From positions 722,001 to 786,000 of the forward strand of contig NZ_CP093280.1 in the NCBI RefSeq assembly GCF_026651855.1: a stretch of DNA of 64,000 nucleotides, written 5' to 3'. The position numbers and the translations under genes were made by a program. How positions within the stretch are numbered: position 1 is the first letter of the stretch; each line of letters starts with the position of its first letter. Below, piece after piece: positions 9,703-39,457 of this stretch. Origin of the DNA: Pseudomonas silvicola (GTDB lineage Bacteria; Pseudomonadota; Gammaproteobacteria; Pseudomonadales; Pseudomonadaceae). The notes under the pieces were generated by a model that did not search any database, was not told the DNA's origin, and saw nothing but the letters and a program-made list of their open reading frames with translations.

Positions 9703-9906
9703 CAGCACCTCCGCTTCGCTTACCTGGCCGGGAAGCACCCTTCACGACCCGCCCCCTATCGGAACAATTCCGCGTGGCTACCCAAATCGACAAACGAACC
9801 CAGATCAGGTTCGGGAAATGCGTAGATCATCAGAAAATCAGCAATTCATGCGTTTGCATGCATTGCCTAGGCTTTTTTGCCCGCTTTTCCTTTTTGGGGA
9901 AGGCGC

Positions 9907-10332
9907 TCAAAGGCCCGACATTTTCTTGATAGCGCCCTTGAGCTCATCATCCGTGCAATCGGAGCAAGTGCCCTTGGGCGGCATGGCATTGATGCCGGTG
10001 ATGGCCTTGGCCAGCAGGCCATCGACGCCGCCTTGTTCCTTGGCGCGCTTGCCCCAGTCGGCGCTGTCGCCGATTTTCGGCGAGCCGAGCAGGCCGGTGC
10101 CGTGGCAGGCGTTGCAGTGCTTGGCGATGACGTCGTCGGGGCTCTTGGCGGCGCTGCCGGCGGCAGCGGTGGTGACTTCCATGCCGGGGCAGGGCTTGCC
10201 TTGCACGCACACTTGGCCGACGGGCTCAAGGCGCTTGGCGATGTCGTCGGTGACGGTTGCCTGGGCGGTCAGGGCCCACAGGGCCAATGCAGTTGCAGAG
10301 GCAGCCAGCATCTTGTTGATTTTAGCGTTCAC
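9907..10332 (-). CDS. cycB: Cytochrome c5
   Basis: About 141 residues with a Sec signal peptide ending near ALTAQA. A single haem-binding motif CNACH lies in the C-terminal half, and the Met ligand is probably in INAMPPKG. An extra cysteine pair (CSDC) near the end is typical of c5 cytochromes. This is a periplasmic electron carrier. GTG at 10332 is chosen because GAGGGTG lies 5-8 bases upstream; an ATG 27 bp further upstream would add residues before the signal peptide. Gene order matches PA5300 of P. aeruginosa. Confidence 0.93.
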   Translation of the reverse strand: MNAKINKMLAASATALALWALTAQATVTDDIAKRLEPVGQVCVQGKPCPGMEVTTAAAGSAAKSPDDVIAKHCNACHGTGLLGSPKIGDSADWGKRAKEQGGVDGLLAKAITGINAMPPKGTCSDCTDDELKGAIKKMSGL

Positions 10333-10462
10333 GCCTACACCCTCGTGGTGGCTGATCACGCCCGCACCTGGGGGCGGGGAAACCTTATTATTAGCATGGG
10401 TATTGCCGCGGCGTCAGTGCGCCACGGCACCCTGATAACTGAGTGTAGCGGTGTATCGGTAA

Positions 10463-11011
10463 TCAGAAGTTCGCCGGGGTAGCGGCACTGATCAACCGGG
10501 CGGGCTCGTCGTAGGGGTTGCGGAAGCGATGGGGCTTGGTACTTTCGAAGTAATAGCTGTCGCCGGCTTCGAGGATGAAGGTTTCGCCACCTACCACCAG
10601 CTCCAGCTTGCCCTCCAGCAGGATGCCGGTCTCCTCGCCTTCATGGGTGAGCATTTCCTCGCCGGTGTCGGCGCCCGGCGGGTAGATCTCGTTGAGGAAG
10701 GCGATGGCCCGGCTGGGGTGCGCCTTGCCCACCAGCTTCATGGTCACGGCGCCATCGGAGATGTCGATCAACTCGTTGGCCTTGTAGACGATCTGGGTCG
10801 GGTTTTCCGGCTGCAGCTCTTCGGAGAAGAATTCCACCATGGACATGGGAATGCCCCCCAGCACTTTGCGCAGGGAGCTGATCGAAGGGCTGACGCTGTT
10901 CTTCTCGATCATCGAAATGGTGCTGTTGGTGACGCCCGCACGCTTGGCGAGTTCACGCTGGGACAGACCTTTGAGTTTGCGAATGGCTTGCAGTCGTTCA
11001 CCGACGTCCAA
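10463..11011 (-). CDS. pauR: XRE-cupin transcriptional regulator PauR (PuuR-like)
   Basis: 182 residues. The N-terminal helix-turn-helix (residues 5-60) includes KGLSQRELAKRAGVTNSTIS, and the C-terminal cupin (about 105-178) includes MLTHEGEETGILLEGK. Homologues repress putrescine/cadaverine gamma-glutamylation genes and are relieved by polyamines. Context agrees: it adjoins the dad locus as PA5301 does, and kauB lies 9 kb away. A TGAACG-N15-CGTTCA inverted repeat at 11054-11080 lies just upstream. Confidence 0.92.
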   Translation of the reverse strand: MDVGERLQAIRKLKGLSQRELAKRAGVTNSTISMIEKNSVSPSISSLRKVLGGIPMSMVEFFSEELQPENPTQIVYKANELIDISDGAVTMKLVGKAHPSRAIAFLNEIYPPGADTGEEMLTHEGEETGILLEGKLELVVGGETFILEAGDSYYFESTKPHRFRNPYDEPARLISAATPANF

Positions 11012-11053
11012 TGCGGGAGCCTCCAGGGGTATTCACGGTATAGGGTGCTTTTT

Positions 11054-11080
11054 TGAACGTTATCATGGCAACAGCGTTCA
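11054..11080. promoter_or_regulatory. Inverted repeat upstream of pauR
   Basis: TGAACG (11054-11059) and CGTTCA (11075-11080) form a 6-bp inverted repeat with a 15-bp spacer, 43 bp before the pauR start. It may be an autoregulatory operator, but no matching site was seen at kauB, so the link is weak. Confidence 0.3.
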
Positions 11081-11147
11081 GTATTTACAACAGATTGCCC
11101 CTAAGCGTGCCGCCCCCTGGCGACTTGCAGTGCTGCGAAATCGGCCC

Positions 11148-12224
11148 TCAAGCCCCGGAATAGACCAGTGGCACCCGGCGCAGGTTACAGAATATCTGGT
11201 AGGCAATGGTCTCGGCGCAGGCCGCCACGTCGCTGGCCAGAATGTTGCGGCCCCACAGCTCGACCACACTGCCCAGGCCCGCCTCGGGCACGTCGGTCAG
11301 ATCAATGCACAGCATGTCCATGGACACGCGGCCCAGCAAGCGGCTGCGCTTGCCCGCCACCAGCACCGGCGTGCCCGTGCCGGCATGGCGTGGGTAACCG
11401 TCGGCGTAGCCCATGGCGACCACGCCGATGCGCATTGGCTTGTCGGTGATGAACTTGGCGCCGTAACCCACCGGCTCGCCTGCCGGCAATTCGCGCACAC
11501 AGATGACTTTCGATTCCAGGGTCATCACTGGTATCAACCGCGCGGCCTCGGCCTGGGGTTCTTCGAAAGGCGTAGCGCCATACAACATGATGCCAGGCCT
11601 CACCCAGTCGCTCGGCACTTGGGGCAGGCCCAGCACGGCAGGCGAATTGCGCAGGCTGGTTTCTGCCGCCAAGCCTTGGCGCGCCGCCTCGAATACCGCC
11701 ACCTGGTCGCCGCTGCTGGGGCAATCCAGCTCATCTGCGCGGGCGAAGTGGCTCATCAGCACGATCTTCGCTACTTTGCCGGTCGCCAGCAGGCGCTGGT
11801 AGGCCCCTGCGTAGTCCTTGGGGTGCAAGCCGACACGGTGCATGCCGGAGTCGAGCTTGAGCCAGACCACCAGCGGTTTGCCCAGGGGCGTCTGCTCAAT
11901 AGCGTCCAACTGCCACAGGGAATGCACCACGCACCAGAAATCATGCTCCGCAGCCATTTGCAGCTCGTCGGCCTCGAAGATGCCTTCCAGCAACAGCACC
12001 GGCGCCTTGATACCCCCGGCGCGCAACTCCAATGCTTCCTCGATGCACGCCACGGCAAAGCCGTCGGCCTCGGCCTCCAGGGCCTGGGCGCAACGCACGG
12101 CGCCGTGGCCATAGGCATCGGCTTTGATCACGGCCAGGGCCTTGGCCCCGTTGGCGAGTTCACGGGCCAGGCGGTAGTTGTGACGCAGGGCGTCTAGGTC
12201 GATCAGGGCACGGGCAGGACGCAT
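11148..12224 (-). CDS. dadX: Catabolic alanine racemase DadX
   Basis: 358 residues, typical of alanine racemase, which interconverts L- and D-alanine. The PLP lysine is K34 in [11 protein letters not shown]. The second-half motifs VGYGAKF (catalytic Tyr) and [10 protein letters not shown] are present. ATG at 12224 is chosen; the longer in-frame start overlaps the terminator upstream. Lying downstream of dadA and ridA in the same direction marks it as the catabolic enzyme. A strong terminator separates it from ridA, so it probably has its own promoter or depends on readthrough. Confidence 0.95.
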
Positions 12225-12258
12225 GACGGCTGTCTTCTTCTGGGCAGACTGTGGGCGT

Positions 12259-12305
12259 AAAAAACCCGGCATGGATGGCCGCTACAGGCAGGCCGCCATG
12301 CCGGG
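12259..12305 (-). terminator. Rho-independent terminator after ridA
   Basis: On the minus strand a 10-bp perfect stem, CCCGGCATGG with CCATGCCGGG, is followed directly by six T. It lies between ridA and dadX. It should end most dadA-ridA transcripts before dadX. Confidence 0.8.
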
Positions 12306-12317
12306 CGAGGTAGCGTG

Positions 12318-12671
12318 TTACGGCAGCGCGGCAACCACGGAGAGTTCGACGAGAATCTCCGGCTCGCACAGCTTGGCTTCGACGGTGGCCCGGGCAGGCG
12401 CCACACCCTTGGGCAGCCACTTGTCCCAGACACTGTTCATGCCTTCGAAATGGGCGTCGATGTCTTTCAGGTAAATGGTCACTGACAACAGGCGCGTCTT
12501 GTCGGTACCGGCCAGGTCGAGCAGGCGCTCGATGGTGGCAAGGATCTCGCGGGTCTGCTGCTCAATGCCGGCGGTCAGGGTGTCGCCCACCTGGCCCGCC
12601 AGGTAGACGGTACCATTGTGGGTAACGACCTGGCTCATGCGCTCATTGGTGAGCTGGCGCTGGATTGACAT
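12318..12671 (-). CDS. ridA: RidA-family enamine/imine deaminase
   Basis: 117 residues from [12 protein letters not shown], family length about 115-130. RidA proteins hydrolyse reactive imines or enamines released by PLP enzymes and amino-acid oxidases. Family motifs include [11 protein letters not shown] and the C-terminal [17 protein letters not shown] with the conserved Arg. The start lies 29 bp inside the end of dadA, so the two are translationally linked. The product of DadA is an imino acid, which gives RidA an obvious role here. Confidence 0.93.
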
Positions 12672-13944
12672 GTCTTGCAGTCTCCTGGTGCTTGCCATAA
12701 CGGGAAATATCGAGGCCTTCGGCGCTGATTTGCGGCTTCTTGCGCGCCATCAGGTCGGCCAGGAAACGGCCGGAACCGCAGGCCATGGTCCAGCCGAGGG
12801 TGCCGTGGCCCGTGTTGAGGAACAGGTTTCGGAACGGGGTGGCACCCACGATAGGCGTGCCGTCGGGCGTAGTCGGGCGCAGGCCGGTCCAGAAACTGGC
12901 CTGGGCGAGGTCGCCGCCCTGAGGATAAAGATCGTTGACGATCATCTCCAGTGTTTCACGTCGACGCGGGTTCAGCGACAGGTCGAAACCAGCGATTTCG
13001 GCCATGCCGCCCACGCGGATGCGGTTATCGAAACGGGTGATGGCAACCTTGAAGCTCTCATCCAGAATGGTGGAGGTCGGTGCCATGGCCGGGTTGGTGA
13101 TGGGCACGGTCAGCGAGTAGCCCTTGAGCGGGTAGACCGGAGCCTTGATGCCCAGCGGCTTGAGCAGTTGCGGCGAATAGCTGCCCAGCGCCAGCACGTA
13201 GCGGTCGGCGGTTTCCAGCTTGCCGTCGATGACCACGCCGTTGACTCGGTCGCCGGCGAAGTCCAGGCGTTCGATGTTCTGGCCGAAACGGAACTCCACG
13301 CCCAGGTCGATGGCCATCTGCGCCAGCTTGGTGGTGAACATCTGGCAATCGCCCGTCTGGTCATTGGGCAAGCGCAGGGCGCCGGCGAGGATGTTGGTGA
13401 CGCTGGCCAGCGCCGGCTCCACACGGGCAATGCCTTCGCGGTCGAGCAATTCGTAGGGCACGCCGGACTGTTCCAGCACGGCGATGTCCTTGGCGGCGTT
13501 GTCCAGTTGCGCCTGGGTGCGGAACAGCTGGGTGGTGCCCAACGTGCGACCTTCGTAGGCGATACCGGTCTCGGCGCGCAGCTCGTCGAGACAGTCGCGG
13601 CTGTACTCGGAGAGGCGCACCATGCGTTCCTTGTTCACCGCGTAGCGGCTGGCGGTGCAATTGCGTAGCATCTGCGCCATCCACAGGTACTGGTCGATGT
13701 CGCCCGTGGCCTTGATGGCCAGGGGGGCATGGCGCTCCAGCAACCACTTGATGGCCTTGAGCGGCACGCCCGGCGCGGCCCAGGGCGAAGCGTAGCCGGG
13801 CGAGACCTGGCCGGCGTTGGCGAAACTGGTTTCCATGGCAACGGCGTTCTGGCGGTCGACGACCGTCACTTCAAAGCCCTGCCGCGCCAGATAATAGGCA
13901 CTGGCGGTACCTATCACACCGCTACCAAGTACCAGAACTCGCAT
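12643..13944 (-). CDS. dadA: D-amino-acid dehydrogenase small subunit DadA
   Basis: 433 residues. This FAD flavoprotein oxidises D-alanine and other D-amino acids to 2-oxo acids and passes electrons to the respiratory chain. The N-terminal Rossmann motif [19 protein letters not shown] is at residues 4-22, and the C-terminal FAD block [14 protein letters not shown] is present. ATG at 13944 gives the family start [12 protein letters not shown]. The gene is divergent from dadR across 155 bp that contain a 22-bp palindrome, as expected for Lrp-type control by alanine. Confidence 0.97.
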
Positions 13945-24249: not shown

Positions 24250-24305
24250 TCACGGCCGCCAGGCCGCGCCCCGCAAGGCTTGTAGCAGAGCGGCTGGCGG
24301 CCCAT
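24250..24305 (-). terminator. Long GC hairpin after the arylsulfotransferase gene
   Basis: GGCCGCCAG (24254-24262) pairs with CTGGCGGCC (24294-24302) across a 31-base loop. On the minus strand GTGAGGGGTTTTA follows. It could end the transcript from 24346, or be a REP-like element. The rest of the 227-bp gap holds no gene. Confidence 0.35.
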
Positions 24306-24345
24306 GCCTTGACTGCATTTGAAATATTCCGAAAAGGCATGGATT

Positions 24346-25680
24346 TCAGCGGCTGGCGCTGGCGTTTTTCAGCGCTGAATCGGGCGCGACCACTGCGGTT
24401 TCGCCGCGGGGCGTACCTTCAGGCACCCAGTCGTAGCTCACTGGCAAGGCGCGGTACACCCAATTGCTGACCGCATCGCTGCCTGGCGCCTTGCCCTGAT
24501 AGGGGCTCACGTACTCCCAGACGATCTCGCCCTTGTCAGTGACCTGGAAGAAGCGGCCGTTCATGCCTTCGTCGATCAGCGTGTTGCCGTTGGGTAAACG
24601 CCGAGCGCTGCTGATGAACGAGCTATAGAAGGCCCAGGAAGGCTGTCTGGAGCTGGCGGCGGTGTATTGCCACACCACTTGCTGCTTGATCGGGTCGACC
24701 TCCAGCACTCGCGAACCAGGGGTCAGCCCCAGCGGCGCCGAGGGGTAGCCAGCCGTGCCCTGGTTGTCGAACACCAGCAGGTTGCCCGCGCCCGGCAAGC
24801 CGGCCGGGATGATGTGCACATCATGCTGGCCAACGAACTGGTCCAGTGGGCGCGGCACCTGCTGGGCCGTCTTGGGGTTGATGGTCGGCAGGTTCGGCCC
24901 CAGGTGCCACACCACTTTGCCGCTGGTCTTGTCGATGATGGCGATGAAGTTGGAGTTGCGAGAATCCAGCAGCAGGTTGTCCGGCGCAAAGCGCTTGTCG
25001 CCGGCATCGAACCATTTGTTCGGCCCCACCACACTCAGGTTATTGATGTGCAGGTAGTCGGGGTTGTCGGTAGCGTGCACCAGCTTCAACTGGGCCGGGG
25101 TGAAGCCGAACTCGGTCAGGTGGTCACTGGCCAGCCATTGCCATTTCACCTGGCCCTGGGGGTCGACCTCGTAGACCACGTCATCGATCAGTTCCGGCAC
25201 CTTGAAGCCGGCCACCTTGTGCACCTTGTTGGCCAGCACCAGGGTGTTGCCGTTGCTCAGGCGACGCTGGTCGTGGTGTTGCTGGGCGGCACCACCAGGG
25301 GCCTTGTCGCCCCACTGCCATACCACCTTGCCGCTCCAGTCCAGTTCACCGACGCTCTGGTTGGCCAGGCCATTGCCCGCCGCACCCAGCGGCCCGGGCG
25401 CCTTCTCGGAAAGTTGCAGCAGTACATGGCCGCGCTCGCCACCCACCAGTTTCGGGTCGATGATGGCCGAGGGAAAACCGTTGTACGGCCAGTTCTTGAC
25501 CTCATTGCCGTCCATGTCGATGAGGTGCGTCTGCTTGTCGGCGCCTGCGAAGATCACGTATTGGTTGTAAGCCTTGGCCGGGTCGTACCGGGTCACGCCG
25601 GTGGGGTACACGCTGGGCGCGGCGTGAGCGGCGCAGGCCAGCACGGCGCTGGCGAGCAGGGTTGCCTTGAACGCTTTCAT
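24346..25680 (-). CDS. Secreted arylsulfotransferase (ASST)-family protein
   Basis: 444 residues. A Sec signal peptide (residues 1-20, ending CAAHAA) is followed by a beta-propeller-like repeat protein. Family phrases include THLIDMDGNEVKNWPY, WQWGDKA, HHDQRRLSNGNTLVLANK, HLHINNL-like DYLHINNLSVVGPN and SARRLPNGNTLIDEGMNGRFF. PAPS-independent ASSTs move sulfate from one phenol to another in the periplasm through a histidine. It lies 20 bp after the TonB receptor gene on the same strand. A role in handling aryl sulfates, rather than a pure phenol-detoxifying role, is inferred from context. Confidence 0.82.
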   Translation of the reverse strand: MKAFKATLLASAVLACAAHAAPSVYPTGVTRYDPAKAYNQYVIFAGADKQTHLIDMDGNEVKNWPYNGFPSAIIDPKLVGGERGHVLLQLSEKAPGPLGAAGNGLANQSVGELDWSGKVVWQWGDKAPGGAAQQHHDQRRLSNGNTLVLANKVHKVAGFKVPELIDDVVYEVDPQGQVKWQWLASDHLTEFGFTPAQLKLVHATDNPDYLHINNLSVVGPNKWFDAGDKRFAPDNLLLDSRNSNFIAIIDKTSGKVVWHLGPNLPTINPKTAQQVPRPLDQFVGQHDVHIIPAGLPGAGNLLVFDNQGTAGYPSAPLGLTPGSRVLEVDPIKQQVVWQYTAASSRQPSWAFYSSFISSARRLPNGNTLIDEGMNGRFFQVTDKGEIVWEYVSPYQGKAPGSDAVSNWVYRALPVSYDWVPEGTPRGETAVVAPDSALKNASASR

Positions 25681-25700: not shown

Positions 25701-28064
25701 TCAGAAGTCATAGCGGGCGGTCACGCCCAGGGTGCGCGGGTCGCCGAGCACGCCGCTGTAGCCGCCGTTGCTCTCGTTCCACAGGGTGGTGTAATAGGTC
25801 TTGTCGAAGGCGTTCTTCAGCCACAGCGAAACGTCCCATTGGCCCTGGCCGAGGTTGCCGCGAAAGCCGGTGCTGAGGTTGACCAGGCTATAACCCGGGA
25901 TTTGCGCGGAGGCGGAATCTTCCAAGGTGCCCACAGCGTGGGAGCGGTACGAGTAGCTGCCGGTGACGTACTCTTCCAGGCCGTTATCCCAGTTCCACTT
26001 GTATTCACCGTTGGTGTTGAACACATATTTGGAGGCACCGACCACCTGATGGCCGGACAGGCTGCAGGAGGCCGGCGCACCGGCCTGTTCACTGACTTCA
26101 GGCGCGCACGGGGCATCCTTGTACGACATGTACCGAACGTCGTTGTAGGTACCGTTGAAGTTAAGAGTCAGGCCCTTGACCGGGATAACCGTGCCGTCGA
26201 GTTCCAGGCCGCGGGAGCGCACGGTGCCGGCGTTGGTCAGGTAGGACACGCGGTTACTCGAGTCGTAGGCGTTGGCCTGGTAACCGTTGACCGTGGTCCA
26301 GAACAGGTTGGCGTTGAGCAGCAGACGGCGATCCCACAGAGTGCTCTTGACCCCCAGTTCGGCATCATTGGCGCGTTCGGAACCGATCAGCAGGGAGTCG
26401 GCACCCGCCGTGGGGGCGCTGCCGACCGCCAGGTTGACGCCGCCGGATTTCTCGCCGTGGGACAGGGTGGCGTAGCCCATCACGTCGTCGGTAAAGTGAT
26501 AGCTGAGGTTGACCATGCCCGAGGGGCTGGCGCTGTAAAGGCTCAAGTCTCCGGAGTTGTAAGCGCCAGCACGGGCATTGCGCTGCGTGGCCGCGGCGCC
26601 GGTCACGGCGGCACCGCCCACGGGAGCATCGCGCTCTACCGTGGCGCTCTTCTCTTCATAGGTGCCACGGATGCCGGCGGTCAGGTCCAGCTTGGGCGTG
26701 AGGTGCCAAGTGCCCTGAGCGAACAGCGCGAAGCTGTCGGTGTCGATGTGGCCGCGGCCAATGCTCGTCACGTTGGCCAGCGCGCCGGTGGCCGTACCGT
26801 TCCAGATATCAGCCTGCGGGCCGTAATACGAGAACGACTTGTTGTCGGTCTTGGAACCGAAATAGTAGGCACCCAGCACATAGTCGAACGGGCCGCCAGT
26901 GGGCGATGCCAGGCGGAATTCCTGAGACCACTGCTTGTCCTCCACCGACACGCCAGCGTTGTAGGACGCCGGCACGTTCAGACCGTCGTCGTTGCGCGGG
27001 GTGAAGTTCCAGAAGCGGTAGGAACTGATGGACGTCAGGGTGAAATCACTCGGCAACTTCCAGTTGGCTTCCACCGAGCCGCCACCCTGGTGCACGGTCA
27101 CGTGCTGGCTGTTGTCCAGGTTGACCTTGCGCGAACCAGGGTTGACCAGGGTAGCCCCGGCCGCTGCGGCCCGGGTCTCGTAGAGGTTGACGCCATTGAC
27201 CGTCGGCCCGGTGCTGAACAGCGTGCGGGTACCCGAGCTGGAGTCTTCCTCGTTGTAGTCGACGATGGCGCGCAGGCTGAAGTCTTCGTTGGGCTTGAAC
27301 AGCAATTGCCCACGCAGGCCGTCGCGCTCGCCACCGCCCAGCTTGTGGCCGTTTTCCTCGTTGGTGATGGTGCCGCCGCTGTCGCTGCGGTACACCGAGA
27401 GGCGCCCGGCCAGTTCGTCGGTGATGGGGCCGGAAATAGTGCCCTTGGTCTGCACATAGCCGTGCTGGCCCACCGAGCTTTCGATGGTGCGCTCAGGGGT
27501 GAAGCTAGGCGCGCGAGTGGTGATATTGATCACCCCCGCCGTGGTGTTCTTGCCGAACAGCGTGCCTTGCGGGCCGCGCAATACCGCCAGCTGGTCGATG
27601 TCCATCAAGTCGAACACGGCCATGCCGGGGCGGCCCAGGTACACGTTGTCGATGTACAGGCCGACGCTGCCTTCCAGGCCATCGCTGGCCGGGTTGTTGC
27701 CCAGCCCGCGGATCGACACGCTGGACTGGCGCGCGTGCATGAACGCTACGTTGACGCTGGGCACCAGTTGCTGAAGGTCCTGGATGCGGTACACGTGCTG
27801 GCTTTCCAGGGTGCTGCCGTCGAGGGTGCTGATGGGGGTGGGCACATCCTGCGCGCTTTCTTCACGGCGTCGCGCGGTCACGGTCACGGTCTTGAGGTGG
27901 GCACCGTCGTCCTGAGCGACGGGGGCCGTCCCACTGGTCGGGGTCACGTCGTCAGCCGCATGGGCCAGGGAAAAGCTGGCGCTGCCGGCCAACAGCAAGG
28001 CCAGCGGCAGGCGCTTGAGGCGCCTCGCGGAAGTAGGGACAGCAGAAGGTGACTGACGACTCAT
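25701..28064 (-). CDS. sftP: TonB-dependent outer-membrane receptor (SftP-like)
   Basis: 787 residues. A signal peptide ends about residue 36 (LAHAA), then comes a TonB-box-like KTVTVTARR. The plug domain (about 70-190) contains SVSIRGLGNN and LRGPQGTLFGKNTTAGVINI, and the barrel ends in an aromatic residue (VTARYDF). It should import a large or scarce ligand across the outer membrane. The setting matches SftP of P. putida S-313, tied to sulfate esters. The gene is divergent from an SftR-like regulator and followed by the arylsulfotransferase gene. Confidence 0.9.
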   Translation of the reverse strand: MSRQSPSAVPTSARRLKRLPLALLLAGSASFSLAHAADDVTPTSGTAPVAQDDGAHLKTVTVTARRREESAQDVPTPISTLDGSTLESQHVYRIQDLQQLVPSVNVAFMHARQSSVSIRGLGNNPASDGLEGSVGLYIDNVYLGRPGMAVFDLMDIDQLAVLRGPQGTLFGKNTTAGVINITTRAPSFTPERTIESSVGQHGYVQTKGTISGPITDELAGRLSVYRSDSGGTITNEENGHKLGGGERDGLRGQLLFKPNEDFSLRAIVDYNEEDSSSGTRTLFSTGPTVNGVNLYETRAAAAGATLVNPGSRKVNLDNSQHVTVHQGGGSVEANWKLPSDFTLTSISSYRFWNFTPRNDDGLNVPASYNAGVSVEDKQWSQEFRLASPTGGPFDYVLGAYYFGSKTDNKSFSYYGPQADIWNGTATGALANVTSIGRGHIDTDSFALFAQGTWHLTPKLDLTAGIRGTYEEKSATVERDAPVGGAAVTGAAATQRNARAGAYNSGDLSLYSASPSGMVNLSYHFTDDVMGYATLSHGEKSGGVNLAVGSAPTAGADSLLIGSERANDAELGVKSTLWDRRLLLNANLFWTTVNGYQANAYDSSNRVSYLTNAGTVRSRGLELDGTVIPVKGLTLNFNGTYNDVRYMSYKDAPCAPEVSEQAGAPASCSLSGHQVVGASKYVFNTNGEYKWNWDNGLEEYVTGSYSYRSHAVGTLEDSASAQIPGYSLVNLSTGFRGNLGQGQWDVSLWLKNAFDKTYYTTLWNESNGGYSGVLGDPRTLGVTARYDF

Positions 28065-28210: not shown

Positions 28211-28227
28211 ATGCATTTGCCCGATAC
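28211..28227. promoter_or_regulatory. LysR-type box between sftP and sftR
   Basis: ATGCATTTGCCCGATAC has the form ATGC-N7-CGAT, a variant of the ATGC-N7-GCAT boxes at 29233 and 35246. It lies 31 bp before the regulator start codon and 147 bp before the receptor start. A further ATGT-N7-GCAT overlaps the start codon (28233-28247). Confidence 0.45.
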
Positions 28228-28241
28228 TTTCAATGTGAAAA

Positions 28242-29192
28242 ATGCATATAGACCTGCGCCAACTTCGCCACCTGATCGCTCTCGCCGAACACCGCAGCTT
28301 CGTCGCCGCCGCCGTGGCGGTGAACCTTTCGCAGTCGGCCTTCAGCCGCAGCATCCAGGCACTGGAACACAGCGTCGGCTGCCAGTTGGTGGACCGCGGG
28401 CGCAAGGACCTGCCGCCTACCAAACAAGGCCAGGTAGTGCTCGAACACGCGCGCCGACTGGTCAGCGGTGCGCGACAACTGAGCAACGAAATAAGCCAAT
28501 TCAACGGCCTGGAAGCCGGCGAACTGCGCTTTGGCTGCGGCCCCGCTCCCGCCTCGGGGCTGGTACCCGCCGCCGTGGGCAGCTTCATCGGTCGTTATCC
28601 GAAAGCGCGTGTGCAGTTTCATATCGATGACTGGCACAGCCTGAGCAAGCGCCTGCTGAGCGAAGAGTTCGAGTTCTTCGTTGCCGATACCCGCCAGTTC
28701 GAAGCCGACCCCGAGTACCGCACGCACCGGCTGCGCCCGCGCCGCTGGCATTTCTGTTGCCGGGTCGGGCACCCGCTGGCGCAGCAGGAATGGGTCAGCG
28801 CCGAGCAGTTGCTCAGCTACCCGATGGCCGCTACCGTACGCCCCCCGAACCTGCGCAAAGTGCTGGCCGACCTCAGCGGCCGGCCGGATTTCAGCCCCAA
28901 CGTGGAGTGCGAAAGCAGTTTTGCCTTGCTGAACGTGGTGCTGCGCTCGGACGCCATTGGCATCAGCGGCACCTACCGCGACGGTGGCCATGGCGCCCGG
29001 GGAGAACTGGTGCGCCTGCGCGTCGAAGGGCTTGATGAACAGCGCGAAGAGCTCTACACCCGCTACGGCATCGTCAGCCGCGCGGGCTATCGGCTGTCGC
29101 CGCTGGCCGAGGCCATGATCGAAGAGATCAAGCGGGTGGATGAAGAGGATGAGCCCGCGGCGGGCTACGACATTCACAACCTGGCGGTGTAA
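28242..29192 (+). CDS. sftR: LysR-family regulator of sulfate-ester use (SftR-like)
   Basis: 316 residues. The wHTH (residues 3-62) has RSFVAAAVAVNLSQSAFSRSIQALE, followed by a LysR effector domain. It is a clear paralogue of the regulator at 33077: both share openings MH(I/M)DLRQLR and the block DAGELRFGCGPAPA or its variant. In P. putida S-313 SftR represses the receptor gene sftP and sulfatase genes while sulfate is plentiful. The repeated ATGC-N7-GCAT boxes nearby are candidate targets. Confidence 0.87.
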   Translation: MHIDLRQLRHLIALAEHRSFVAAAVAVNLSQSAFSRSIQALEHSVGCQLVDRGRKDLPPTKQGQVVLEHARRLVSGARQLSNEISQFNGLEAGELRFGCGPAPASGLVPAAVGSFIGRYPKARVQFHIDDWHSLSKRLLSEEFEFFVADTRQFEADPEYRTHRLRPRRWHFCCRVGHPLAQQEWVSAEQLLSYPMAATVRPPNLRKVLADLSGRPDFSPNVECESSFALLNVVLRSDAIGISGTYRDGGHGARGELVRLRVEGLDEQREELYTRYGIVSRAGYRLSPLAEAMIEEIKRVDEEDEPAAGYDIHNLAV

Positions 29193-29232: not shown

Positions 29233-29280
29233 ATGCATTCGGCGCATACAAAGTATTCAAGGAATGCGCTTGCCGAATAC
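29233..29280 (+). promoter_or_regulatory. Paired LysR boxes upstream of the binding-protein/sulfatase operon
   Basis: Box 1 at 29233-29247 is ATGC-ATTCGGC-GCAT, a perfect T-N11-A palindrome. Box 2 begins exactly 31 bp (three turns) later at 29264 with ATGC-GCTTGCC-GAAT and keeps T-N11-A. This resembles the recognition-site plus activation-site layout of LysR regulators. The gene start is 59 bp beyond. Confidence 0.6.
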
Positions 29281-29338
29281 CCCTGCCTGAACGCGAAATA
29301 GTCTGCATTTCCAGTGACTTGCGCAAACAGGAAGGCCC

Positions 29339-30388
29339 ATGAGAAAACGCTTCAGACCCTTGCTTGGCCTAGTGCTGGCCGCCCTGCTCGGCCAGGCCCA
29401 CGCAGCGGACCCGGTGACCATTCGCATTGGCTCGCCCGACCAGGGCGCCGGCACCACGCCGTTCATTGCCGGGCCGGTAGGTATCGCGCATATCCAGCAG
29501 CAGTTGGAAAAGGAATTCGCCGCCGACGGCGTGAAGGTCGAGTGGCACTTCTTCAAAGGCGCCGGCCCGGCCGTCAACGAAGCGCTGGCCAATCAGCAAC
29601 TGGACTTCGCCTGGCTCGGCGACCTGGCCGCGATCATCGGCCGCTCCAGCGGCCTGCCTACCCGCCTGCTGCTAGGCGCACGGGGCAACAACATGTACTT
29701 GGCCACGAGCGCGAATTCGAACGTCCACAGCCTGGCCGACCTCAAGGGCAAGCGCGTGGCGGTCTACCGAGGCACCGCTGACCAGCTGTCGTTCGGCCGT
29801 GCACTGCAAAGCCAGGGCCTGAAGGAACATGACCTGCAGATCATCAGCCTGGACTGGAGCGCGGCGCGCGCCGCCCTGGCCAGCGGGCAGATCGACGCCA
29901 CCTGGTCAGGCATGGGCATCCTCGCCCTGGGCCCGAAAGGCATCCAGTTCCCAATGAGCACCAAGCAACTGCCACCGCTGGCGACCACTCAGGCCGGGCT
30001 GGTCGCCACCCAGGCCTTCATCGACCAGCACCCCGACCTGACCCAGCGCCTGGTCACCGTGCTGGTGAAGAACGCCGCGTGGTTGACCGACACCCAGAAC
30101 CAGCCGGCCTACAACCAGCAGATGGCTGAGCAAAGCGCCATCCCCGCCGCGCTGTTCGAACAGGAGGCCAAGGGCGATAACCTGGCCTTCCGCGAATCGC
30201 CTCGCATCGACCCATTCCTGCGCGCCAGCCTGCAGGACAGTGTCGACCAGGCCAAGGCCCTGGGCCTGGTGCGCCGCCCCTTCAATGCCGCCGACTGGGT
30301 AGAGCCCCGCTTCGTCGACGCCGCTATCGAACAGCTCAAGCTCGGCACCCTGTGGCCCGCCTTCGACGCCAATGGCAAAGCCCTCTGA
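29339..30388 (+). CDS. Periplasmic sulfonate/sulfate-ester-binding protein (AtsR-like, paralogue 1)
   Basis: 349 residues with a signal peptide ending near residue 21 (QAHA). It belongs to the SsuA/TauA/AtsR fold: FFKGAGPAVNEALANQQLDFAWLGDLAAIIGRS, DLKGKRVAVYRGTADQLSFGRAL. It is paralogous to the protein at 34122, sharing most of those blocks. No permease or ATPase gene accompanies it, so it may feed AtsB-AtsC encoded at 35-38 kb. The sulfatase gene begins 15 bp downstream, suggesting the pair handles one ester class. Confidence 0.88.
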   Translation: MRKRFRPLLGLVLAALLGQAHAADPVTIRIGSPDQGAGTTPFIAGPVGIAHIQQQLEKEFAADGVKVEWHFFKGAGPAVNEALANQQLDFAWLGDLAAIIGRSSGLPTRLLLGARGNNMYLATSANSNVHSLADLKGKRVAVYRGTADQLSFGRALQSQGLKEHDLQIISLDWSAARAALASGQIDATWSGMGILALGPKGIQFPMSTKQLPPLATTQAGLVATQAFIDQHPDLTQRLVTVLVKNAAWLTDTQNQPAYNQQMAEQSAIPAALFEQEAKGDNLAFRESPRIDPFLRASLQDSVDQAKALGLVRRPFNAADWVEPRFVDAAIEQLKLGTLWPAFDANGKAL

Positions 30389-30403
30389 CCCCCAGGTATT
30401 CCC

Positions 30404-32008
30404 ATGACCGCCATCAAGAACGTGCTGTACATCATGTGCGACCAGCTGCGCCGCGACTACCTGTCGTGCTACGGCCACCCGCACCTGCATACCCCCAACA
30501 TCGACCGCCTGGCCGCTGCCGGCGTGCGTTTCAGCCGCGCCTACACACAGGGCACCATCTGTGGACCGTCGCGCATGTCGGCGTACACCGGCCGTTACGT
30601 CAGCAGCCACCAGGTGGCCTGGAACGCCGTTCCCCTGCCGCTGGACGAACTGACCATCGGCGACTACCTGCGCCCGGCTGGCATCCGCACCGCACTTGTG
30701 GGAAAAACCCACGCCACGCCCAATACCGATGCCCAGCAGCGCCTGGCCATGGCGCCGGACAGCAGCGAAGCCGAGCAGTTGAATGAAGTGGGCTTCGAGG
30801 CTTATTTCCGCCACGACGGCCTGTTCCCCGACGACCCGATCTTCGACAGCAAACGCGAAGGCTCGCCCTACACCCACCACTTGCGTGGCCTGGGCTTCGA
30901 AGGGCGCAACCCGTGGCACGACTGGGCCAACGCCGCCGAAGGCGCCAACGGCGAAATCCTCAGCGGCTGGAAAATGCGCAATTCCCACCTGCCGGCACGC
31001 ATTCCCGAAGAGCATTCGGAAACGGTCTATACCACCGACCGCGCCATCGACTTCATCGGCGAGCAGGGCGACCAACCCTGGTGCCTGCACCTCTCGTACA
31101 TCAAACCGCACTGGCCCTACATAGCGCCAGCGCCCTACCACGCCCTGTACAGCAAAGACCAGGTGCTGCCAGCCGTGCGCCCCGCCCCGGGAGCTGAAAA
31201 CGATCACCCGGTGTACAACGCCTTCCGCCAGCACGAGGAGAGCCTGAATTTCTCCCGCGAAGAAGTGCGCCTGAACGTGATCCCTACCTACATGGGCCTG
31301 ATCAAGCAGGTAGATGACCAATTGGGGCGCCTGTTCGACTTCATGCAAAGCAACGGCCGCTGGGACGACACCCTGATCGTGTTCACCAGTGACCATGGTG
31401 ACTACCTGGGCGACCACTTCCTGGGCGAAAAGGAGTTCTTGCTGGAACCGGCGGTAGGGGTGCCATTGATCGTGCGTGACCCCCGCCCGCAGGCCGACGT
31501 GACCCGTGGCACGGTGGACGAACACCTGGCCGAGACCATCGATGCCCTGCCCACCTTCCTCGACGCGCTGGGCTTGCCAGCCGCCGACCACCGCCTGGAA
31601 GGGCGTTCGCTGATCCCGCTGTTGCATGGCCAGCAACCAGCCTGGCGTGATTTCGCCGTGGCCGAGTATGACTATGCGTTCCAGGCACCCGCCCGCGAGC
31701 GCCTGGGCCAGGCGATCGACCGCTGCCGCATGTACATGGTGCGCAGCGAACGCTACAAGTACCTGGCTTACGACGGTTACCGGCCGCAGCTATTCGACCT
31801 GCAGGAAGACCCTCAGGAGCTGCGCGACCTGGGCACCGACCCGGCGTTCGCCGCGGTCCGCGAGCAACACCAGGGCTACCTGTTCGATTGGCTGCGCGGC
31901 CTGAAACGCCGCACCACCATCAGCAACCAGGAGATCGACATCCGCGGCCGGCGCTTCCGCTATGGCGAGCCGGAAACCGAAAAACTGGTGCCGATCGGCG
32001 TCTGGTGA
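30404..32008 (+). CDS. Formylglycine-type sulfatase / phosphonate monoester hydrolase-like
   Basis: 534 residues, no signal peptide, so cytoplasmic. The active-site motif CGPSR has Cys53 for conversion to formylglycine. The metal-site sequence near the start is MCDQLRRD, with Gln in place of the second Asp; this is shared with the phosphonate monoester hydrolase and choline-sulfatase branch. The TSDHGDYLGDH block supplies the other metal ligands. It should release sulfate (or a phosphonate) from an alkyl or aryl ester delivered by the binding protein encoded just upstream. The gene converges on atsK with a 19-bp gap. Confidence 0.88.
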   Translation: MTAIKNVLYIMCDQLRRDYLSCYGHPHLHTPNIDRLAAAGVRFSRAYTQGTICGPSRMSAYTGRYVSSHQVAWNAVPLPLDELTIGDYLRPAGIRTALVGKTHATPNTDAQQRLAMAPDSSEAEQLNEVGFEAYFRHDGLFPDDPIFDSKREGSPYTHHLRGLGFEGRNPWHDWANAAEGANGEILSGWKMRNSHLPARIPEEHSETVYTTDRAIDFIGEQGDQPWCLHLSYIKPHWPYIAPAPYHALYSKDQVLPAVRPAPGAENDHPVYNAFRQHEESLNFSREEVRLNVIPTYMGLIKQVDDQLGRLFDFMQSNGRWDDTLIVFTSDHGDYLGDHFLGEKEFLLEPAVGVPLIVRDPRPQADVTRGTVDEHLAETIDALPTFLDALGLPAADHRLEGRSLIPLLHGQQPAWRDFAVAEYDYAFQAPARERLGQAIDRCRMYMVRSERYKYLAYDGYRPQLFDLQEDPQELRDLGTDPAFAAVREQHQGYLFDWLRGLKRRTTISNQEIDIRGRRFRYGEPETEKLVPIGVW

Positions 32009-32027
32009 CAGACGCCGTACAGGCGCT

Positions 32028-32933
32028 CTACAGGCCGCGGGTGGTCACGCTGCGTTGCCCGGCGACACCCACCGGCACTTCGCCCTGCAAGGTCACCCGG
32101 CGCACGATGCGCTCCTGGGTGCCATAGTCGTCCACCGCATAGTGCTGGGTAGCGCGATTGTCCCAGATGGCCACATCACCCGCGGCCCAGCGCCAGCGCA
32201 CGGTGTTTTCCAGGCGTACCACGTGGCTTTGCAGCACCGCGAACAGGTGCGCCGAATCGCTGGCCGAGTAGCCCTTGATACGCTTGACGAAATGGCCGAG
32301 CAGCAGGGTTTTTTCGCCGCTGACGGGGTGTACGCGCACCACCGGGTGCTCCGTCTCGAACACGGTCGAGGTAAAGACCTTGCGGTAGTTTTCCAGTTTT
32401 TCGGCTGACACGTCCGGCTTGGCCGCGGCGTAGTCGTATTCATTGCTGTGCACCGCCCAGAGCTTGTCCGCCAACTCCTGCAGGGGGGCTGGCAGCTCGT
32501 TGTAGGCGGCCGCGGTGTTGGCCCATACGGTGTCGCCACCTGAAGCAGGGGCGATGACAGAGCGCAGGATGGAAGCCTTCGGATAAGCGTCCACGAAGGT
32601 CACGTCGGTGTGCCACGAGTTGGCCCGCTGGCCATCGGCGCCGCTGAGCTGCATCAGGTAACGGGTGCCGTCACGTACCGGCACGGTGGGATGGGCGATC
32701 GGCTCGCCGAGCAAGTGGGCGAAGGCTTCCTGGCTCTGGTCATCCAGGTGAGTCTGGCCACGGAAAAAGATCACCTTGTACTGCACCAGCGCGGCCTGAA
32801 TGGCGGCCACAGTGGCCGCGTCCAGGTCGGCGCCCAGGGTGATACCGCGGATTTCGGCACCGATACGGCCGGCCACCGGGTGGATATCCAGCGCCACGGC
32901 GGTGGCGTTTGCAGCGAGAGTGGCATTGCTCAT
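32028..32933 (-). CDS. atsK: Alkylsulfatase: Fe(II)/2-oxoglutarate dioxygenase AtsK
   Basis: 301 residues, the same length as P. putida S-313 AtsK. The iron ligands H108, D110 ([10 protein letters not shown]) and H264 (ATQHYAV) and the 2-oxoglutarate arginines R275 and R279 all fall at the positions known for AtsK. The enzyme oxidatively cleaves medium-chain alkyl sulfates to aldehyde and sulfate in the cytoplasm. Close relatives include TauD (taurine), but the position match favours AtsK. It is divergent from the LysR paralogue at 33077. Confidence 0.94.
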
Positions 32934-33067
32934 GGTCAGCTCCTCATCTTTCTATGCATAGAAGAATTGGTTCTAGATAAATCACCAACGCTTCGTTGAC
33001 GGAATAAGAGCTTCCATTTAAAACCTTCACCCACCCGCTGTACCAATACCTTCGCCCTATTTTTCAG

Positions 33068-33082
33068 ATGCCGGGAATGCAT
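33068..33082. promoter_or_regulatory. ATGC-N7-GCAT box overlapping the LysR-2 start
   Basis: ATGC-CGGGAAT-GCAT matches the perfect boxes at 29233 and 35246. It covers the candidate start codons at 33068 and 33077 of the LysR gene and is 135 bp from the atsK start. Autorepression by steric block is a plausible outcome; chance from the conserved MH start is an alternative. Confidence 0.4.
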
Positions 33083-34003
33083 ATGGACCTGCGCCAACTG
33101 CGGTACTTCATCGCGCTCAACGAACACCGCAGTTTCGTCCGTGCCGCCGACGCCATGGGCATCACCCAGCCAGCCTTCAGCCGCAGCATTCAAGGCCTGG
33201 AGCAGGAGTTCGGCTGCGTGCTGGTGGACCGCGCCAACAAGGACCTGCGGCCCACGCCCGAAGGCATGGTGGTATTGCAGCATGCCTTGAGCCTGGTGCA
33301 GGGCGCGGCGCTGCTGGCCAGCGAAGTCACGCAGATGACCAAGCTCGATGCCGGTGAATTGCGCTTTGGCTGCGGCCCGGCGCCGGCGGTGCGGTTGGTG
33401 CCCGAGGCAGTGTCGAGCTTCGTGCGCGCACACCCCAAGGTGCGTACTTACTTCGAGGTGAACAACTGGGAGAAACTCAGCCGTGCACTGAGCCGCGAGG
33501 AGATCGAGTTCTTCATCGCCGACATCCGCCACTTCGAGGCCGACCCCAATTTTCAGACGCAGGAACTGACCCCCAAGCGTGGGGTATTCTTTTGCCGGCC
33601 GGGGCACCCCTTGCTGGGCAAGGAAAGCCTGTCGACCAACGACCTGTTCGACTACCCATTGGCCGCGGCACTGATCCCGCCCGGCGTGCGCAAGCTACTC
33701 GCCAACCTCAGCGGCAAGACCGATTTCAGCCCGCATATCCAGACTGAGCACGTGCCAGCGCTGGTCAAGATCGTGCTGGACTCCGATGCCATCGGCCTGA
33801 CGACCGAAGAGAGCTTCGAAGAGAACGCCAGGAACCTGCAACTGGGCCGGCTGCACTGGCGCAACCTGCCCCAGAACCTGGAAAGCCTCAGTGCCCGCTG
33901 CGGCATCGTCAGCCGCATGGGGTACCGGCTGTCACCGGCGGCGCGGGCGATGATCGACACCATCGTCGAGATCGATGCCCAGCCCGCCGCCAAGGCGGGC
34001 TGA
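33077..34003 (+). CDS. LysR-family regulator (SftR paralogue 2)
   Basis: 308 residues when started at the ATG aligned with the paralogue at 28242 (MHMDLRQLRYF); ATGs at 33068 and 33083 are also possible. The wHTH has HRSFVRAADAMGITQPAFSRSIQGLE. The effector domain shares GELRFGCGPAP, EEIEFFIADIRHFEADP and the C-terminal RCGIVSRMGYRLSP with the first copy. Its position between atsK and the second binding-protein gene suggests it controls the atsK and atsRBC-atsA side of the island. Confidence 0.87.
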   Translation: MHMDLRQLRYFIALNEHRSFVRAADAMGITQPAFSRSIQGLEQEFGCVLVDRANKDLRPTPEGMVVLQHALSLVQGAALLASEVTQMTKLDAGELRFGCGPAPAVRLVPEAVSSFVRAHPKVRTYFEVNNWEKLSRALSREEIEFFIADIRHFEADPNFQTQELTPKRGVFFCRPGHPLLGKESLSTNDLFDYPLAAALIPPGVRKLLANLSGKTDFSPHIQTEHVPALVKIVLDSDAIGLTTEESFEENARNLQLGRLHWRNLPQNLESLSARCGIVSRMGYRLSPAARAMIDTIVEIDAQPAAKAG

Positions 34004-34121
34004 CGCTACAGCCCCCCGGTGTGCCACGTCCGACGCGCCCGTTGAAACCCGTGTAACAGCGGACCTGGCCGCGTCACGAACGCCGCGCAGCACCGGCCCC
34101 CCCGCATGCGGCAGTCCCGGG
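34004..34121. repeat. REP-like sequence between convergent genes
   Basis: This intergenic spacer is GC-rich and contains GGACCTGGCCGCGTCA (34061-34076), identical to 7706-7721, with GCGGCCTGT-like flanks. No coding sequence or clear terminator is seen. Confidence 0.45.
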
Positions 34122-35114
34122 TTAGCGGGCTACCCAGTCAGCCACCTTGAACGGTTTGCGAATCAGGCGCTCCTGGGCCGCCAGGTCCACGGAGGATTGC
34201 AACTTGCCAAGGAACTGCGGATCCAGCGTCGCCGGGAACACTTCGCTGAGCTTGTCGGCCTGCAGGTCCTGGGCCACCAGCGCTGGCGGGTAGCTGGCCT
34301 GCTTGGAAACCAACTGTACGTAAGCGTCCTTGTTGCCGTCCTGGGTCAACCATTGCACCGCACTGTCCTGGGCCTTGATCAGCCGCGCGACGATATCGGG
34401 GTGGGCGTCGACAAACGCGCCATTGCCCACCAGCACACTCTGGATGCTACCCGCGCCGCCCAGGTCGCGGGTATTGAGCGGGATATCCGCCAACCCGCGC
34501 TGTTGCAGCACGATTGTATTGAGCAGACCCCAGGTGGCATCGATCTGCTTGGCCGCCAGGGCCGACTGGGCCGCGCTGTAGTCCAGGTTGACGATCTTGA
34601 AATCCTTCTCGCTCAAGCCTTGGCTGGCCAGCGCGGCATCGAACGAGAGCTGGCTGGCGGTGCCACGGAACAGCCCTACGCGCTTGCCCTTGAGGTCTTG
34701 CAGGGTCTTGATGCCCGACCCCGGTTGCACGGCCAGGTATTGCTTGATGCCCCGGGCAGTCGCACTGAGCAGGCGGGTATCCAGGCCATTGGACTTGCCG
34801 ATGATGGCCGCCAGGTCACCCAAATAGGCGAAGTCTACCTGGCCGTTGGCGAAAGCCTCGTTGATGACCGGGCCCGCCCCTTTGAAAAATTGCCACTGGA
34901 TATGGATGCCATCGGCGGCGAAGGCTTTTTCGAACGCCTGTTGCTGGCGCAGCACATCAACCACCCCGCCACCGCTGTGTTCAGTACCTGCGCTGAGGTC
35001 AGGCACGGCGATGCGAATTTCCTTGACCGCGTCGGCATGGGCAGCCAGTGGCAGGCAGGCCAGCAGCGCTGGCAACGCAACAAGACGGGCTAGGCGAGTT
35101 AGGTTTTTTTTCAT
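34122..35114 (-). CDS. atsR: Periplasmic sulfate-ester-binding protein AtsR (paralogue 2)
   Basis: 330 residues with a Lys/Arg-led signal peptide (MKKNLTRLARL...LAAHA, cleavage about residue 28). Binding-protein blocks FFKGAGPVINEAFANGQVDFAYLGDLAAIIGKS and DLKGKRVGLFRGTASQLSF are shared with the protein at 29339. It is divergent from atsB across 295 bp, in place of the co-directional atsR seen in other pseudomonads. It should deliver alkyl or aryl sulfates to AtsB-AtsC. Confidence 0.88.
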   Translation of the reverse strand: MKKNLTRLARLVALPALLACLPLAAHADAVKEIRIAVPDLSAGTEHSGGGVVDVLRQQQAFEKAFAADGIHIQWQFFKGAGPVINEAFANGQVDFAYLGDLAAIIGKSNGLDTRLLSATARGIKQYLAVQPGSGIKTLQDLKGKRVGLFRGTASQLSFDAALASQGLSEKDFKIVNLDYSAAQSALAAKQIDATWGLLNTIVLQQRGLADIPLNTRDLGGAGSIQSVLVGNGAFVDAHPDIVARLIKAQDSAVQWLTQDGNKDAYVQLVSKQASYPPALVAQDLQADKLSEVFPATLDPQFLGKLQSSVDLAAQERLIRKPFKVADWVAR

Positions 35115-35245
35115 GGCGGGCGCTCTTGGCTGATCACGGATGGCGCACAGTCAGGCACATACCTCAGTATTTAATTAAATACTATAAATTCACATTTTAG
35201 TCACTAAAAAGAATAAGCAGGCAAAACAGGCCTTGCGCTCAGATC

Positions 35246-35291
35246 ATGCATGGCGCGCATCGAAAATATTCTTCAAATGCATTGGATGCCG
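35246..35291 (+). promoter_or_regulatory. Paired LysR boxes upstream of atsB
   Basis: Box 1 at 35246-35260 is ATGC-ATGGCGC-GCAT, a perfect T-N11-A palindrome. Box 2 starts exactly 31 bp later (35277) with ATGCATT but its right half has diverged. The 31-bp spacing is the same as at 29233/29264. The atsB start is about 120 bp further on. The remaining AT-rich spacer (35160-35400) carries promoter-like sequence but no gene. Confidence 0.55.
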
Positions 35292-35409
35292 AGCGCGCAG
35301 AGGCCTTAAATGGCACCTCTTATCTCTTTATTGAATCACTTCTATTTTTGCTAGATCCAATAAGAATATACAAATAGCCTTAAGCAGTAGCCGACAACGG
35401 AGGTCTGAC

Positions 35410-37004
35410 ATGGCCCGTGATTCCCTCCTCAGCCTGCCCCTGGCCAAGCCCGCGGCCGCCAAGCGGCGGGCCGGGCCCTCGCCCTGGCAACGGCTGCAAG
35501 CCTTCTACCTGCCCGCGGCGCTCTTCGCGCTGTGGTGGTTGGCCAGCCGCAACCACTGGATGAGCGAACAGATCCTGCCAGCGCCGTCGCTGGTCTGGCA
35601 GAGCACCCTGGAACTGGCCACCGGTGACTTGCCGAGCAACCTGTGGATCAGCCTGCAGCGGCTGTTCTGGGGCCTGCTCGCCGGTATCGGCAGCGGTGCG
35701 GTACTGGGCGCCTGGCTGGGCTTCAGCCGGCGTGCCGAACGCCTGGTGCTACCCACTTTCACGGCCCTGGCGCAGGTCCCCACCCTGGCCTGGATTCCTC
35801 TGTTCATGGTGTTCTTCGGCATCGGCGAACTGCTTAAGCTGGTGGTGCTGATCAAGGCCATCGTGGTGCCCGTCACCCTGCACACCCTGGTAGGTGTAAG
35901 AGACGCCCAACCCAAGCTGCGCGAGGCCGCCGCCGTGCTGCGGCTGCCGCCACACCTGCTGGTGCGCCGCCTGGTACTGCCAGCGGCCTTGCCGTCGTTC
36001 ATGGCCGGCGTACGCCTGGCACTGGGGGCGGGCTGGTCTTCGCTGCTGGCGGTGGAACTGCTGGCGTCCAGCGAAGGCATCGGTTACCTGATGGTGTGGG
36101 CGCGGCAGTTGTTCATGCTCGATATCGTCTTCGTGTGCGTAGTGGTCATCGGCGTCATCGGCGTGACCATGGACAAGGGCATCGCCCTGGCCGACAGCAA
36201 GCTTGTGCACTGGCCCCATGCCGCCACCGCCGCCCTGCCCCGCAACCGTCGCGCCCGAGGCCTGGACCGCCTGACACCCTGGCTGTTGCCCCTGGCGCTG
36301 CTGGTGCTGTGGCAGCTCGCCAGCCAGCTGCAGTGGGTGGATGCCAATATCCTCGCTTCGCCCCTGGCCGTGCTGCGCACCACCTGGGCCGGGTTGCTGG
36401 ACGGCTCGTTGCTGACCGCCATGGGCTTGAGCCTGGGCCGCACCGTCGGCGGCCTGCTGCTGGGCGGTGGGCTGGGGTTTGGCCTGGGCCTGTTGCTGGG
36501 CCTGTGGAAGCCGGCTGACCGGGTGCTGGGCCCGAGCCTCGCGGCGCTGCGCCAGATCGCCATCTTCGCCTGGGTGCCACTGATCACCGCGTGGTTTGGC
36601 CTGGGGGAACCGGCCAAATGGGTATTCGTTGCGCTGGCGGCGTTTTTCCCGCTCTTCATCGCCACCCACCGCAGCGTCGCCAACCTGTCGCCGCAATTGG
36701 CCGAGGCAGCCCGGGTGCTGCGCCTGAACCTGTGGCAACGCCTGCGCCGCCTGGTCTTGCCGGGCGCCGCCCCAGGTATTTTCGCCGGTTTGCGCCTGAG
36801 CCTGATCTACGCCTGGCTGGGTACCATCGGCGCGGAGTATTTCATGCCCTCCAACGGCGGCATCGCCAGCCTGATGATCGGCGCGCAGCAGTTGATGCGC
36901 ATGGACCTGATCATGAGCGGCATGCTCCTGGTCGGCCTCACCGGCGCTTTGCTCAACGCCCTCGGACAACGCATCGAAGCGCGCGCCACGCGCTGGAGAC
37001 ACGC

Positions 37005-37008
<4 letters not shown>
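35410..37008 (+). CDS. atsB: Sulfate-ester ABC permease AtsB, two permease domains fused
   Basis: 532 residues, twice the usual size of SsuC/TauC permeases. The first half (about 30-260) and second half (about 285-525) each form a complete binding-protein-dependent permease domain with its own coupling loop: KLREAAAVLRLPPHLLVRRLVLPAALPSF and QLAEAARVLRLNLWQRLRRLVLPGAAPGI. Hence one polypeptide replaces a homodimer. This fused form is a feature of the AtsB transporter. A stop/start overlap (ATGA) joins it to atsC. Confidence 0.92.

Positions 37009-39457
<2,449 letters not shown>

Follow-up and report, generated by a model that had tools for sequence, protein, structure and literature searches.

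Sulfate esters rank among the main sources of sulfur in soil, and the LysR-family regulator SftR reportedly matters for soil survival (Kahnert, 2002). LysR-type operators commonly combine a recognition binding site (RBS), a T-N11-A palindrome near −65, with an activation binding site (ABS) near −35 (PMC5603801, PMC12016517), and the regulator gene is commonly divergent from its target; a 2017 paper states that a conserved ABS motif had yet to be identified (PMC5603801). SftR/ats/sft systems are described for Pseudomonas putida S-313 and Pseudomonas sp. UW4, the latter with the gene order atsACBR-sftR-atsK-sftP (PMC3596284). Here, we analyzed a stretch of 64,000 nucleotides from Pseudomonas silvicola (GCF_026651855.1, NZ_CP093280.1, positions 722,001–786,000 of the forward strand; hereafter, the window), in which related copies of a two-part operator precede four sulfate-ester gene sets, and relatives keep this operator. 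Judging from sequence, we are fairly confident that the sites at 29233 and 35246 are operators of the LysR type belonging to a small, clustered regulon for sulfate esters, probably divided between two paralogues, LysR1 and LysR2, the latter in the SftR position.

The locus adds a new, well-defined case to an established class of switch, the RBS/ABS type; here, the second site keeps its sequence from promoter to promoter and between species and, unlike in the usual arrangement, two operators overlap or abut a regulator start codon. Compared with UW4, the interval from sftP to atsK in the window additionally holds LysR1, a substrate-binding protein (SBP1) and another sulfatase, and LysR2 of the window corresponds to SftR by gene order only. 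Two further systems are relevant. In Pseudomonas sp. WBC-3, two paralogous LysR-type transcriptional regulators, PnpR and PnpM, footprint one promoter (PMC5603801), which is a precedent for two LysR readers, although it differs in serving aromatic catabolism and in its GTT-N11-AAC box. SdsB–SdsA pairs a LysR regulator with a metallo-hydrolase alkyl sulfatase (PMC8230428). Our literature searches, which covered sources partly in excerpt, returned no paper describing an SftR operator. In P. aeruginosa, the LysR protein PA0191 presumably lies near the ats genes. This protein is included in an atlas made by high-throughput systematic evolution of ligands by exponential enrichment (HT-SELEX; PMC8041468).

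Two-part operators and their shared core

A preliminary description of this DNA had pointed to the palindromes ATGC-ATTCGGC-GCAT (29233) and ATGC-ATGGCGC-GCAT (35246); both are exact, and each has a diverged second copy 31 bp downstream, starting with ATGC at 29264 and 35277. These partners carry one and, as counted by eye, two mismatches to ATGC-N7-GCAT, respectively, and chiefly share the left half-site with the palindrome. The first operator (29233–29267, plus strand) comprises an RBS at 29233–29247, a core, AA-N3-ATTC, at 29250–29258 and the ATGC partner, the putative ABS half-site, at 29264–29267. It precedes an operon encoding SBP1, an SsuA-like substrate-binding protein (29339–30388, plus; NMT1, with a TIGR01728 match below its cut-off), and a PehA/choline-sulfatase-like sulfatase (30404–32008, plus; Pfam Sulfatase). 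The second (35246–35280, plus; RBS 35246–35260, core 35263–35271, partner 35277–35280) precedes atsBCA, that is, an atsB-like double ABC permease gene (35410–37008, plus; two stretches of Pfam BPD_transp_1), an atsC-like ATPase open reading frame (ORF) known from the ORF list only (plus, ending at 37829, between atsB and atsA) and an atsA-like arylsulfatase gene (37847–39457, plus; Pfam Sulfatase).

The additional forms reported at 28211 and 33068 are real, but they belong to two minus-strand operators. One of these (28247–28213; RBS 28247–28233, ATGC partner 28216–28213), in whose partner/−35 portion the 28211 form sits, faces the sftP-like TonB-dependent receptor gene (25701–28064, minus; Pfam TonB_dep_Rec_b-barrel and Plug) and covers the start codon of LysR1 (28242–29192, plus; HTH_1 and LysR_substrate). 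The other (33082–33048; RBS 33082–33068, partner AGGT at 33051–33048) faces the atsK-like TauD-family dioxygenase gene (32028–32933, minus; Pfam TauD) and abuts the start codon of LysR2 (33083–34003, plus; HTH_1 and LysR substrate-binding domains). The operator sequences, their conservation and their linkage to the LysR1 and LysR2 genes are directly observed.

Aligning 29233 and 35246 gave a full pattern of 19 fixed letters, ATGC-N7-GCAT-N2-AA-N3-ATTC-N4-AATGC, to which both sites have 0/19 mismatches; the AA-N3-ATTC core had been overlooked in the preliminary description. At up to three mismatches, the full pattern has six matches in its own genome: 29233 and 35246 (none), 24304 (two), 28247 on the minus strand (three) and two outside the cluster (three each). 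The best three, and four of six in all, are thus in the cluster, the two outside tying with the fourth, and the reversed pattern gave no match in this genome at the same threshold. It is the core, not the spaced pair alone, that is the discriminating feature. The source genome (8.65 Mb, three contigs, estimated contamination 8%) exceeds the other listed genomes of the genus in size, and one of its contigs may derive from another organism; the window sits on the 7.6 Mb contig.

In a sample of 149 genomes of the genus, 73 had a match to the full pattern at up to two mismatches: 41/41 of those encoding an orthologue of LysR1 (identity of roughly 75% or above), 28/44 with other LysR homologues only and 4/64 without any homologue at E ≤ 1e-60. 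The reversed control over the genus genomes gave none among the matches listed. These counts bear on the idea that a different sulfur regulator, for example CysB, binds the boxes. Sulfur starvation genes are widely under CysB (PMC3596284), but the full pattern tracks the LysR1 and LysR2 genes (41/41 versus 4/64) and the operator is located at the start codons of those very genes, so that we regard binding by such a regulator as very improbable.

Conservation, promoter geometry and chance

We retrieved 80 loci through LysR2 and cut the orthologous gaps atsR/atsB (71), the one preceding SBP1 or the sulfatase (71), sftP/LysR1 (71) and atsK/LysR2 (76). The bare pattern, ATGC-N7-GCAT followed by ATGC at +31, was exact in 71/71 atsR/atsB gaps; before SBP1 or the sulfatase, it was exact in 60/71 and had one mismatch in 11/71. 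It was found with one mismatch in 70/71 sftP/LysR1 gaps and not found in the remaining one, and the 75 unique atsK/LysR2 gaps, searched on either strand, contained it with one mismatch (72) or two (3). The half-site columns of the sulfatase gap are near-invariant, unlike the N7 spacer and the upstream flank, which vary, so relatedness alone fails to explain this conservation. The sftP and atsK gaps are less telling because their flanks are conserved as well, partly as LysR codons. Since no LysR2 homologue was detected at E ≤ 1e-70 in 368 other genomes of the 369 sampled in the class, the comparison was confined to the genus.

The operator also recurs at regulator start codons. Among unique 64-base stretches at LysR starts (up to two mismatches, partner ATGC or AGGC), it was present in 41/43 LysR1, 7/7 LysR1-like and 51/58 LysR2 genes and in 5/5 genes of a distant, SdsB-type clade, compared with 5/585 random 64-base stretches from the same loci.

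A limited promoter scan (−35 offsets +30 to +43, spacers 15–19, allowing a palindrome centre of about −56 to −73) placed the palindrome at −65 or −66 relative to the best pair in 4/4 operators, with scores of 7, 7, 9 and 8 of 12, and the partner adjoins the putative −35 in all four. The putative promoters are TTGCCG (29270–29275), N18, CGAAAT (29294–29299) for SBP1-sulfatase (29270–29299, plus; 7/12); TTGGAT (35282–35287), N18, TTAAAT (35306–35311) for atsBCA (35282–35311, plus; 7/12, with conserved TaAA columns); TTGCTA (28210–28205) and TATAAA (28186–28181) for sftP (28210–28181, minus); and TTGGTA (33046–33041) with TTTAAA or TTAAAT (about 33022–33016) for atsK (33046 to about 33016, minus). 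The −10 letters of atsB, sftP and atsK are conserved among relatives. A layout with the RBS at −65 and the ABS at −35 is likely, which is consistent with the earlier proposal that a LysR recognition site plus activation site marks a sulfate-ester regulon.

This geometry also bears on whether the operators are mainly repressor sites, acting by roadblock or occlusion, from which sulfate esters would release the LysR protein. SftR reportedly binds DNA without inducer, and two of the operators touch LysR start codons, as such a role might predict; the palindromes, however, lie upstream of, not over, the putative structural-gene promoters, which is the usual activator geometry, and we consider a mainly repressing role quite unlikely.

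The bare pair has a different standing from the full pattern. It occurs exactly only at 29233 and 35246 in the 8.65 Mb genome, and twice in the window against 0.01 expected. Because the same genome has 36 forward and 25 reverse matches with one mismatch and each relative has about one exact chance match, the bare pair by itself is weak evidence, and it was rejected as a regulon marker on its own. The palindrome ATGC-N7-GCAT alone was likewise rejected as a signal: at up to one mismatch, it is not enriched in the window (26 seen, 43.5 expected), and there are 6 exact copies of it in the window and 122 genome-wide. The preliminary description had suggested comparing the motif with its random frequency; on that comparison, the bare pair stands out in its own genome, and across the genus only the fuller pattern does.

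Several observations weigh against reading these sites as operators of one LysR regulon. The exact bare pair occurs about once per related genome at scattered places (in 12/19 genomes, including its own), and the full pattern is a poorer match to the operators at sftP and atsK, with 3/19 and 5/19 mismatches, respectively. The 80 loci were picked by LysR2 similarity and are related, so their counts are not independent events. In a wider promoter scan, the −65 pair was best at sftP and atsK only, tied at the sulfatase and was beaten at atsB, where a pair at +85 scored 8, one point above it. Finally, no operator was found at the start of a third paralogue clade (0/3; the copy in this genome and two relatives), of 7/58 LysR2 genes or of one LysR2-like gene (0/1). 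Some of these points would also suit boxes that are chance occurrences or functionless relics of promoter duplication, namely the frequency of the bare pair among relatives and the missing enrichment of the palindrome in the window. On the other side stand the near-invariant half-sites beside a varying N7 and flank, and the distant LysR genes, only 45–51% identical, with the bare operator at their start codons (5/5). We give that explanation hardly any credence; the core and the cross-species conservation raise the operators above chance.

Assignment of LysR1 and LysR2

LysR1 and LysR2 form separate clades (97/97, support 0.91, and 107/107, support 0.92, respectively), and their recognition helices are near-identical (LysR1, LSQSAFSRSIQALE; LysR2, ITQPAFSRSIQGLE). 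LysR2 lies between atsK and the gene for the atsR-like substrate-binding protein (34122–35114, minus; profile matches), a position that LysR1 does not have. LysR2-only loci, such as L132–L135 and L137, match the UW4 gene order; therefore, LysR2 takes the place of SftR, and LysR1 is an additional paralogue. The preliminary description had named SftR or its paralogue as the activator of both plus-strand operons, which we refine to two LysR proteins, probably LysR1 at 29233 and LysR2 at 35246.

The two proteins can be told apart by the company they keep. In six genomes (within L149–L160), one contig holds LysR1, sftP and the sulfatase and a different one LysR2, atsK and the ats genes, each set accompanied by its operators. 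The partner at +31 is ATGC in the operator at LysR1 itself and mostly AGGC or AGGT in that at LysR2. At the atsB operator, position +32 is T in 78/78 loci with LysR1, whereas the 11 lacking it have T (6) or G (5) there (Fisher 1.1e-5, ignoring relatedness), and position +4 is A in 76/78 versus 4/11 (Fisher 1.6e-6, likewise ignoring relatedness). The 78 loci comprise 72 with LysR1 nearby, including the window's copy, and 6 with LysR1 on another contig; four loci of uncertain LysR1 status, two of them (L115 and L170) from one genome, were excluded from these letter tests. Along the tips of the LysR2 tree, the 11 loci without LysR1 form three groups, and a G occurs in every one of them; under a stricter filter, nine were counted, five with ATGC and four with AGGC. 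A clean one-letter code was not adopted, as 6/11 atsB operators without LysR1 keep T at +32.

LysR2 probably reads the atsB operator because LysR2-only genomes keep it, and the differing atsB letters in genomes lacking LysR1 suggest that LysR1 may read it too. LysR2 alone might read all four operators, with LysR1 acting elsewhere or redundantly. The nearly identical helices would allow this, as would the retention of the atsB operator in the 11 loci from genomes without LysR1, but the LysR1 start codon has an operator of its own (41/43), six genomes group LysR1 with the sulfatase and sftP operators apart from LysR2, and the atsB letters differ with the presence of LysR1. A single reader is, in our view, rather unlikely, and we favor a division between the two proteins.

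Proposed mechanism and the wider operator family

We infer the promoters, binding, activation, ligand and assignment of readers, and propose the following mechanism. Each operator would combine three elements: a recognition site, ATGC-N7-GCAT, near −65; a core rich in A/T; and a half-site, ATGC (or AGGC), next to the −35. As in other members of the family, a LysR tetramer would occupy the recognition site, and an inducer would shift its second dimer onto the core and half-site beside the −35, recruiting polymerase, so that a sulfate-ester signal would activate each structural operon through the tetramer. LysR1 would most likely read its own operator (sftP) and 29233 (sulfatase), and LysR2/SftR the one at its own start (atsK) and that at 35246 (atsBCA); where both proteins are present, LysR1 might additionally read 35246. 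Each regulator is divergent from its target with an operator between them (sftP/LysR1 and atsK/LysR2), and because these two operators overlap or abut the LysR start codons, binding that activates sftP or atsK may also hold down the regulator's own gene. Relatives conserve a TTGACG block ahead of LysR2 (33017–33050, both strands), which could be the LysR2 promoter, face to face with that of atsK.

A fifth site, which the preliminary description had missed, has the AAGGC form (24304–24340, plus). It lies between tonB of tonB-exbBD (minus, start 24118) and an arylsulfotransferase-like gene situated between tonB and sftP (24346–25680, minus; PF05935), and it points away from tonB. In most loci where both could be placed, it is about 190–225 bp upstream of tonB, and no −35/−10 pair above score 6 was found in its direction. 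Elsewhere in the same genome, the third paralogue (L111, G000:C1:3921001-3941000; 9940–10926, minus), 59% identical to LysR1, has an AtsR-like protein (52%) and an sftP-like receptor (43%) as neighbors.

In the distant clade, the start codon of all five LysR genes carries the bare operator without mismatch; the proteins are only about 45–51% identical to LysR1 or LysR2. The gene facing them encodes an alkyl sulfatase, a different sulfatase class, in L123 and L128 (Pfam Alkyl_sulf) and, by ORF reading, in L122 (about 9650–12760 in these three loci); in L127 (Pfam) and L121 (ORF reading), it encodes an AraC-type regulator. LysR1 and LysR2 face sftP and atsK, not an alkyl sulfatase, and the SdsB arrangement is seen only in L123 and L128 (and L122 by reading), which are called SdsB-type for this arrangement. 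We offer as a tentative extension, possible but doubtful at present, that one operator grammar may serve the whole sulfate-ester LysR subfamily (LysR1, SftR/LysR2 and SdsB-type), always at the regulator start codon, and that its letters would sort the paralogues: T in AATGC with A at +4 for LysR1, and G in AAGGC or AAGGT for LysR2, with LysR1 constraining the atsBCA operator in trans and both proteins reading it.

Of these results, the more interesting concern the letters that may sort the paralogues, together with the wider operator family. A full definition of operator and promoter makes the regulon callable from sequence, and the locus offers a conserved activation site, an element that is usually difficult to define. 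The gains, losses and separations of the paralogues form a natural series for asking how targets are shared out between sister LysR proteins whose recognition helices are almost alike.

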